From: Bacteroidota bacterium
GTDB lineage: Bacteria > Bacteroidota > Bacteroidia > Bacteroidales > JAAUTT01
Assembly (NCBI GenBank): GCA_030706405.1
Contig: JAUZOO010000018.1
Location: 1-64,000 of the forward strand
Direction: 5' to 3'
Length of the DNA: 64,000 bases
In this document: positions 28,664 to 31,326 of the stretch, in pieces
How the letters are laid out: each line of letters begins with the position of its first letter
Position numbering within the stretch: position 1 is the stretch's first letter
Position numbers and translations under genes: made by a program
Notes under the pieces: model-generated
Databases searched by the model: none
Seen by the model: the letters and a program-made list of their open reading frames with translations, nothing else
What the model was told of the DNA's origin: nothing

Positions 28664-29362
28664 ATGGAATATTTAGATAAAACCAGTCTTTTTAAAACAA
28701 TTGATAACGTATCAGAAGCTTTTCTTTTTGGATTAGCGATTAAGGAAGATGAAAAGCTTGAGATAGCCGATTTTATTATTAATCAGCAACACCCGGGTGC
28801 TTATGCTGGAACGTTTGCTCCGACGGATGTTGATTTAGCGCGGGATTTAGTATTGTTTACCGGCGATAAAATAACATCGCGTGTAGGAAAATGTCATGTG
28901 ATTGGAGAGGAAGCAAGCCGGGCTTTGCGTAAGTTAAACCTGCCGACAGAAAAAGTTAAATCAGCGCTTCAGAGGGCTGATAGCGGATTACAAAGTCGTG
29001 TTAATGATTGCCTCGCTAAGCAACGATATAATTATGGTATGTATTGTTGCAAATCGTGTTCGTGCGCATTGTGGATAAATCTGGCCTCTGGCGGGTTAAA
29101 TAATAATATAGCGCTTTTGGTTGCCGGGCTGGACAATCTTAAGCAATACCGGGATACTAAAGGAGGTTGGACTGGTTTTCCGTTTTCTTATACAGTTTAT
29201 GTTCTTAATGAGATTAATCCGGATATGGCAATTAATGAAATGAGATATGTTGCAAAGTTTTTGGAGGTTAGGCTTAAACGAAAAAAGAATAACCCAACCA
29301 AGTACGATTTGAGACGGGATTATATTTACGAGCAGATACTTACTAAAGTGAATAGTTATTAA
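28664..29362 (+). CDS. Hypothetical protein with CCxxCxC cluster
   Basis: 232-aa ORF; MYCCKSCSCALWINLASGG motif; no family recognised. Confidence 0.7.
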   Translation: MEYLDKTSLFKTIDNVSEAFLFGLAIKEDEKLEIADFIINQQHPGAYAGTFAPTDVDLARDLVLFTGDKITSRVGKCHVIGEEASRALRKLNLPTEKVKSALQRADSGLQSRVNDCLAKQRYNYGMYCCKSCSCALWINLASGGLNNNIALLVAGLDNLKQYRDTKGGWTGFPFSYTVYVLNEINPDMAINEMRYVAKFLEVRLKRKKNNPTKYDLRRDYIYEQILTKVNSY

Positions 29363-29479: not shown

Positions 29480-29809
29480 ATGCGAATTATTATTGTCATA
29501 GGATTAATGTTGAATTGCTTTATACTGAATGCCCAAAAGAACGATGTAATAAATGGTATTGTTAGGGATAGTAATAAAGTGCCGTTAGCGGGAGTTTTGA
29601 TTTCAATTAAAAGTAATAATAAAGTACTGTCATCAACCATTAGTAATAAAGAAGGGAAATATATATTGAATGTATCCGATACGTTAAAGGATTTTACGAT
29701 TGAATATAAGGGCGTAGGGCTACAAAATAGAATAATTAAAATTAAACGGACTAACCAACAAACTACCAATGAAAAAACAAAAAATATTATTCTTCAATAT
29801 TCTCTATAA
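29480..29809 (+). CDS. Secreted CarboxypepD_reg-like domain protein
   Basis: Signal peptide; INGIVRDSNKVPLAGVLISIKSNNKVLSSTISNKEGKYILNVSDT. Confidence 0.78.
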   Translation: MRIIIVIGLMLNCFILNAQKNDVINGIVRDSNKVPLAGVLISIKSNNKVLSSTISNKEGKYILNVSDTLKDFTIEYKGVGLQNRIIKIKRTNQQTTNEKTKNIILQYSL

Positions 29810-30338
29810 TATATTAGCTGTACTTTCTAAACATATCCGTAATAGAAGCTTAATAAAGTGGAAATTAGCGCTTGGACTATTTATCATTACCAATAAATCG
29901 ATAAAAGGGCAGGAAGTCAACTTTCCTAATAAGGAAAAACAAGCAGATACTCTCACATTAAATATAGAAATGAAAGAAGAACCTGTAACATTGTGTTATG
30001 AGGTAGTTGTAGTTAATTATAAACATACAAAAAAAGGACCTGAGTTTGTTGGAGGGCAACGGAAACTGAACCGGTTTGTACAGAAAAATGTAATTTATCC
30101 TAAACTGGCAAGGGAGAAAAGAATATCCGGGGACGTAGCTGTAAATGTTTATATTCAGGAGGACGGACAAGTTTTTAATGCTGAAATAGTAAAGGGCTTA
30201 GGTTCTGGATTGGATGAGGAAGCTTTACGTTTGGCTAAGCTTTTACCCAAATTCAAGCCCGGAAAAATAAATAATAAGGCTTCCGAATCGGAAAAAATAG
30301 TGATTATTCATTTTGAATTGCCCCAAAATGCAAAATAG
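29769..30338 (+). CDS. TonB C-terminal (TonB_C) domain protein
   Basis: EFVGGQRKLNRFVQKNVIYPKLAREKRISGDVAVNVYIQEDGQVFNAEIVKGLGSGLDEEALRLAKLLPKFKPG. Confidence 0.85.
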   Translation: MKKQKILFFNILYNILAVLSKHIRNRSLIKWKLALGLFIITNKSIKGQEVNFPNKEKQADTLTLNIEMKEEPVTLCYEVVVVNYKHTKKGPEFVGGQRKLNRFVQKNVIYPKLAREKRISGDVAVNVYIQEDGQVFNAEIVKGLGSGLDEEALRLAKLLPKFKPGKINNKASESEKIVIIHFELPQNAK

Positions 30339-31326
30339 CATTGTAAATATAAACTTCGAAATAACCTATCTGTGCAATCAGCAATGTTTATATTGTTATA
30401 ATGCAACGACCGTCAACGGAAATTCAAGAACATCTGGCGGGAATGTTATCAAGGTTTTGGATAAGCTTATTGGAAATATAGATTTTACACAATTAACCTT
30501 AACAGGTGGAGAGCCTTTATTATCAGCGGAGATAGAGGAGGTTATTATTCATGCTATTGTTCATAACAAAAAGGTGTCGGTTATATCGAATGGATCATCA
30601 AATCAACATTTTAGATATAAAAAGCTTATTGATTATGGTGTAGAGACGTTTCAGCTAACAATAAATTCAGCATCGTCGGCGATCCATGACAATCTTTCTC
30701 AAACAACCGGAGCTTGGGAAAGAACTGTTAAAACCATTGAATTTATTTTAGCAAATAATGGAAAGATAGTTCCAACCATTATTTTGACTAAAGAAAATAT
30801 TGCAGAAATAGATAAAGTTATGGGTTTTCTGCAAGATTATGGATTTCAAACAATAATGATAAACCGATTCAATGTAGTTTCTAACAAGCCTAATTCAATA
30901 AGCCTTTTACCTTCGCATAATGAGTTAAAAAAGGCATTTGAACTAATAAATAATTTTGCAATAAGTTCGGGTATTAGAATTACATCTAATGTTTGTTCTC
31001 CGCATTGCATTTTAGATCCGCAGGATTATAGCAGTATAATATTTGGAACATGCCCGGATAATCATTATTTAAAGCCTATAACTGTTGATATGTTTGGAGG
31101 GGTAAGATTATGTAATCATTCCACCAAGATTATAGGGAACATATTTAACCATAAACTTGATGATATATTATTGTCAGAATATGCTTTAGGATGGAATTCG
31201 ACAATCCCGGAATATTGTGCGAATTGTATTGTTTATGATTCTTGCAGGGGAGGGTGCAGGGCTGCTTCGGAACAATTCTATAATAATCATTTAATAGTTG
31301 ATCCTATCGTTGAATTGTTAAAATAA
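30328..31326 (+). CDS. Radical SAM/SPASM domain protein (peptide maturase-like)
   Basis: CNQQCLYC [4Fe-4S]-SAM motif, LTGGEPLL, SPASM CANCIVYDSCRGGC; start could also be 30313. Confidence 0.92.
   Translation: MQNSIVNINFEITYLCNQQCLYCYNATTVNGNSRTSGGNVIKVLDKLIGNIDFTQLTLTGGEPLLSAEIEEVIIHAIVHNKKVSVISNGSSNQHFRYKKLIDYGVETFQLTINSASSAIHDNLSQTTGAWERTVKTIEFILANNGKIVPTIILTKENIAEIDKVMGFLQDYGFQTIMINRFNVVSNKPNSISLLPSHNELKKAFELINNFAISSGIRITSNVCSPHCILDPQDYSSIIFGTCPDNHYLKPITVDMFGGVRLCNHSTKIIGNIFNHKLDDILLSEYALGWNSTIPEYCANCIVYDSCRGGCRAASEQFYNNHLIVDPIVELLK

Follow-up and report, generated by a model that had tools for sequence, protein, structure and literature searches.

A radical SAM/SPASM enzyme and its leader-bearing exported partner as a putative protein-maturation pair in Bacteroidales

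Introduction

What does a radical SAM (rSAM) enzyme of the SPASM type act on when it is encoded in one overlapping operon with two exported proteins? The question is raised by a locus in the window, by which we mean the whole 64,000-nucleotide stretch of DNA analysed here, which comes from a Bacteroidales genome of 4.9 Mb. Three successively overlapping open reading frames (ORFs) were confirmed on the plus strand: an exported CarboxypepD_reg-like accessory protein of 109 aa (29480..29809), an exported protein of 189 aa composed of a leader, a linker, and a TonB_C domain (29769..30338), and a rSAM/SPASM enzyme of 332 aa (30328..31326), the last assigned from a homologue alignment, its domains, and an AlphaFold2 model. 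The initial annotation of this DNA had described the same three ORFs, with exactly these overlaps (41 nt between the first two, 11 nt between the second and third), had proposed that one of the coupled secreted proteins is the substrate, and had reported that there is no GG-leader precursor near the operon, which is upheld. We consider it likely that the enzyme and a leader-bearing exported partner form a dedicated protein-maturation pair, in which a Cys-Tyr motif is putatively modified before export.

Results

The rSAM ORF may begin at ATG 30328 or TTG 30313, and the ATG agrees with the starts of the orthologues. The enzyme belongs to the radical SAM superfamily, as it has a Radical_SAM domain (67 bits) and the CX3CX2C SAM-cluster motif, CNQQCLYC, at residues 16–23 (30373..30396, plus strand), whose cysteines are invariant in 28 homologues. 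The SPASM match is weak (17.3 bits vs. a cut-off of 21.5). In the homologue alignment the SPASM region holds Cys223, 227, 242, 262, 297, 300, 306, and 310 (30994..31257, plus strand), of which seven are invariant in the 28 homologues and Cys223 is nearly so. Two of the cysteines of this region are extra and lie upstream (SNVCTPxC), and the canonical eighth, C-terminal SPASM cysteine is missing both in the window enzyme and as a conserved column across the family. The set expected for two auxiliary clusters is thus incomplete, and of the previously described CNQQCLYC with a “full” SPASM motif, the former stands and the word “full” does not. The family signature reads CNxxCxYCYN ... SNVCTPxC ... 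CNHSPxxxGNI ... CxxCx5CxGGCRAASEQ...DP.

The AlphaFold2 model of the enzyme (pLDDT 89.9) is closest among PDB folds to anSMEcpe, an anaerobic-type sulfatase maturase (anSME) with bound peptide, to PqqE, and to SuiB. There is no RRE domain at the N-terminus, where only 15 residues stand before the first cysteine of CX3CX2C at residue 16. Many rSAM models of NCBIfam match it, the best at 74 bits and all far below their cut-offs, and no equivalog for the enzyme family scores above cut-off. A strong match to a family with a known unrelated substrate, such as a sulfatase maturase, had been named at the outset as an argument against a role in modifying the coupled proteins; none exceeds its NCBIfam cut-off. 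The anSME family TIGR03942 (cut-off 349 bits) is outside the best 25 families of the window enzyme, and a homologue (L039) scores 53 bits against it.

A search of GTDB genome contigs returned 80 loci with enzymes of 28–45% identity, nearly all from Bacteroidales, with a few others from Kapaibacterium and Candidatus Mcinerneyibacteriota. One locus labeled “proteobacterium” (L086, 28% identity), which has no partner, was left out as doubtful. About 20 of 393 Bacteroidales genomes (~5%) carry the enzyme, two of these copies being partial. In the tree, the window enzyme groups with that of Puteibacter (L021) within a clade supported at 100/99; the TIGR04133 enzymes fall outside this clade, as does a sister group (L121–L126). 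The sister enzymes are 311–316 aa long and score ~200 bits to A2; their neighbours are larger exported proteins (313–490 aa) with no Cys-Tyr in the leader-proximal parts seen, several of which begin with a hydrophobic segment and a lipobox-like cysteine.

In nearly all loci, the gene adjoining the enzyme encodes an exported protein of 75–410 aa, most partners having 160–390 aa. Scored by script over loci with sufficient flank, a partner lies within 1 kb of the enzyme in 72 of 76. Two of the four misses are methodological: the partner of L024 overlaps the 3′ end of the enzyme gene, and that of L064 had been dropped as a duplicate of L057. Loci L031 and L040 are solo enzymes with no adjacent partner, and the same genomes hold unlinked partners, each having [VT]-T-C-Y as well as the leader. 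Start/stop overlap is common to the family (of 70 pairs measured, 59 overlap or are separated by ≤4 nt); because it recurs in this way, the overlap with the partner is not attributable to chance, in keeping with the translational coupling first suggested by the window operon.

The partners share an N-terminal leader resembling KxKxxxGxx[LI], usually a lipoprotein signal, followed by [TSML]-Cys-Tyr-[DE]. Their C-terminal parts vary, and may be TonB_C, CarboxypepD_reg, regions with no Pfam match, or, in lipopeptides of 75 aa, almost nothing. In the window partner, alignments, the structure model, and the genome-wide profile place the leader/signal segment at residues 1–43 (29769..29897, plus strand), modeled as two helices, with the core KWKLALGLFII at residues 30–40, in which K32 and G36 are conserved. 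The proposed modification site, TLCYEVVVVNY (29988..30020, plus strand; Cys76-Tyr77 at 29994–29999), is drawn from the alignment, the motif table, and the model, and falls in a linker predicted to be disordered (pLDDT <50). The CYEVVVVNY segment had been singled out early as a notable element, and its Cys-Tyr is indeed conserved across partners. The EVVVV that follows is similar to the segment after CarboxypepD_reg in SusC-type transporters. The TonB_C domain, found in TonB energy-transducing proteins, spans residues 107–184 (30087..30320, plus strand; Pfam PF03544, 60 bits), and a domain scan of the genes flanking the operon gave no match to ExbB/ExbD.

The 109 aa protein falls marginally below the Pfam cut-offs for CarboxypepD_reg (32.0 vs. 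32.3 bits) and CarbopepD_reg_2 (31.3 vs. 32.2 bits), and weakly matches the part of TIGR04056 that follows CarboxypepD_reg. It has no Cys-Tyr. The early guess that one of the coupled secreted proteins is the substrate is supported for the TonB_C protein, the likely substrate, which has both the conserved leader and the motif. A separate neighbouring CarboxypepD_reg gene was otherwise observed in Puteibacter (L021) alone, the nearest relative; in Dysgonomonas a domain of this type is fused into the Cys-Tyr partner. The initial annotation had expected TonB_C and CarboxypepD_reg proteins to be the conserved partners, and regarded homologues lacking these neighbours as evidence against its proposal. 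A neighbourhood survey found such homologues, yet these keep a leader-Cys-Tyr protein in the same place. Neither domain therefore defines the partner, as both are missing from most homologues. Just 5′ of the operon (28664–29362) lies an ORF of 232 aa with no Pfam or NCBIfam match.

A leader HMM matched 123 ORFs in the loci, and Cys-Tyr follows the leader in 118 of these; the profile spans the leader region alone and does not model the motif, and the partners used for training had been picked for Cys-Tyr. At loci outside the training set (L103–L118 and L156–L168), the motif is present in 31 of 36 ORFs. The five exceptions are the same in both counts and all have Cys-His, being tandem paralogues of a single locus, L116 (G690:C210), where five lipopeptides of 70–75 aa are encoded in tandem at 342–1504 with Cys-His replacing Cys-Tyr. 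Over 174 occurrences the consensus is [VIT]-[TSML]-C-Y-[DE]-[PV]-[AV], with one to four copies per protein, and Cys-Tyr is invariant in an alignment of 13 TonB-type partners. All 64 small exported ORFs immediately upstream of the enzyme contain Cys-Tyr, compared with 7 of 78 (~9%) small exported ORFs at distances above 2.5 kb. Distant exported ORFs were chosen as the control because an expectation from each protein’s own composition would be circular, the motif itself adding to the cysteine count. The motif was also considered as a lipobox and rejected: it lies at a variable distance (3–147 residues) past the end of the matched leader, and 93 of the 123 ORFs have a separate lipobox-like cysteine by regular expression.

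Co-occurrence across genomes is nearly exclusive. The 393 Bacteroidales genomes divide into 18 with both a leader match and the enzyme, two with the enzyme only, and 373 lacking both; no genome has a leader match alone (Fisher p = 3.6e-29, with no correction for phylogeny). The two enzyme-only genomes are defined at the leader-match threshold used; one (G583) has a weaker leader match, and in the other (G519) the enzyme stands at a contig end. One of the 18 double-positive genomes (G463) has only a partial, degenerate enzyme copy that has lost Cys262. This copy (L123, G463:C277) reads IRINSHSP in place of RxCNHSP, a conserved SPASM cysteine being lost, and G463 retains a Cys-Tyr partner (L175) despite it. 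In 41 near relatives, leader proteins are confined to the three enzyme-carrying genomes.

Enzyme-positive genomes often also have unlinked leader-Cys-Tyr genes, including clusters of lipopeptides of 75–100 aa. One such tandem cluster of short lipopeptides (L161, G537:C13, 4853–7317) has no adjacent rSAM gene. At L156 (G030:C326, 7012–8818), another rSAM-like gene adjoins one for an exported protein of 224 aa that contains CYSMAMPPE, and an unlinked leader-Cys-Tyr gene lies a few kb away. The TIGR04133/TIGR04134 genes occur at nine loci; any further gene family is shared by six loci at most.

Discussion

From the pairing of the genes and the conservation of leader and motif, we infer that the enzyme acts on the partner, at its Cys-Tyr, and does so before export. 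The cytoplasmic enzyme would recognize a leader that doubles as the signal sequence, and would then modify the Cys-Tyr just downstream of it (Cys-His in one variant) while the partner is still unfolded. The partner would subsequently be exported, mostly as a lipoprotein and, for the window partner, probably via a Sec type I signal. One enzyme may serve several substrates with varying C-terminal parts, encoded adjacently or elsewhere in the genome, and translational coupling may help the enzyme to meet its substrate. The putative chemistry with the most precedent is a thioether formed from the Cys sulfur, and a Tyr-centred change or Cys oxidation is possible. The joint change from Cys-Tyr to Cys-His at L116 suggests that the Cys cannot be replaced, and that an aromatic or heteroaromatic side chain is required at the second position. 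Counting against this view of the pair, the enzyme lacks an RRE domain, and a Cys-Tyr close to the membrane could instead serve as a metal or redox site with no need of modification.

Enzymes of this superfamily that act on proteins offer precedents by analogy. anSME acts on a Cys or Ser of a protein still awaiting export, and is the best fold match to our enzyme, yet the identity is only 14–16%, the substrates here are not sulfatases, and one canonical SPASM cysteine is missing here. QhpD, the maturase of quinohemoprotein amine dehydrogenase, makes Cys thioethers on a protein rather than on a released peptide (PMC8326336), and its likeness to the present enzyme is by analogy alone. The GeoRSP rSAM (TIGR04303) is the NCBIfam model that scores best against the five relatives scanned, at 91–102 bits vs. 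a cut-off of 400, and no GeoRSP partner genes were seen at the present loci.

It is improbable that the Cys-Tyr partner is instead a helper or receptor, such as a TonB-linked uptake protein acting downstream, with the enzyme modifying a small molecule or another peptide. The TonB_C and CarboxypepD_reg domains of some partners do belong to transport systems, and the nearest NCBIfam families by score include some that act on small molecules or peptides, but partners of ~75 aa consist of only a leader and C[YH] (L116, L161), five paralogues have changed from Cys-Tyr to Cys-His together, and biosynthetic, protease, and transporter genes do not recur in the loci.

A conventional thioether RiPP cluster of the sactipeptide or ranthipeptide type, with a released peptide as its product, is very unlikely. 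Maturases such as SkfB, PapB, and CteB are likewise SPASM or twitch enzymes that make leader-guided changes to a Cys-containing core, and the tandem short precursors of L116 and L161 would fit such a cluster. The present enzyme differs in having no RRE region, in its substrates, which would be folded exported proteins, and in scores far below the equivalog cut-offs. Across the loci there is no recurring RRE, whether as part of the enzyme or encoded separately, and no recurring protease or dedicated transporter. Most of the “precursors” are exported proteins of 160–390 aa rather than short peptides, and each motif has a single Cys.

Strict membership of the TIGR04133/TIGR04134 system, which is annotated as hypothetical in NCBIfam, is less tenable still. 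The logic is the same, namely a rSAM/SPASM enzyme encoded with exported lipoprotein families in Bacteroidales, and at five Alistipes loci (L050, L052, L060, L063, and L084) the pair described here lies inside a TIGR04133/TIGR04134 locus, so that two rSAM systems stand side by side. The scores separate them: the window enzyme reaches 52.6 bits vs. the TIGR04133 cut-off of 425, while the neighbouring enzymes of L060 and L084, as controls, reach 569 and 576. Against TIGR04134 (cut-off 39.8 bits), the window partner gives no match and the other leader-Cys-Tyr partners scanned give at most 15.2 bits, compared with 88 bits for the L050 lipoprotein. The two enzyme groups are apart in the tree, nothing in the window genome exceeds the TIGR04133 cut-off, and the TIGR04134 proteins seen at the present loci carry Y-G-[CVTA]-P near the lipid-modified end (e.g., AEYGCPHMNF) where the partners here have the leader plus C-Y.

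That the operon is a chance assembly of unrelated genes, with Cys-Tyr a common dipeptide or lipobox feature, is scarcely conceivable. The dipeptide does occur in ~9% of control exported ORFs, but it is conserved after the leader in 118 of 123, enzyme and leader co-occur across genomes, unlinked partners exist where the enzyme stands alone, and many partners have a separate lipobox-like Cys before the motif.

Returning to the maturation pair, we lean toward a broader interpretation, that this is a new class of envelope-protein modification in Bacteroidota, in which one rSAM enzyme would use a signal-sequence “leader” as a tag for Cys-Tyr/Cys-His sites across the genome, on lipoproteins, TonB_C proteins, and very short lipopeptides that are otherwise unrelated. 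No described enzyme-partner pair of this kind was found in the literature searched, in which subscription journals are thinly covered, in agreement with the earlier statement that no described system pairing SPASM maturases with TonB_C in this way was known. If this is correct, a radical enzyme recognizes its substrates by their signal sequence, and gut and environmental Bacteroidales have envelope proteins with a so far undescribed residue. Predicted substrates can be listed directly from the leader profile and Cys-Tyr motif, and the naturally occurring swap between Cys-Tyr and Cys-His offers a ready handle on the chemistry. It would also shed light on the uncharacterised TIGR04133/TIGR04134 system, its neighbour in Alistipes. 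Short lipoproteins that have CVACYG[TV] at their lipobox are also encoded at the five Alistipes loci in which the two systems adjoin; where scanned, they fall below the TIGR04134 cut-off.
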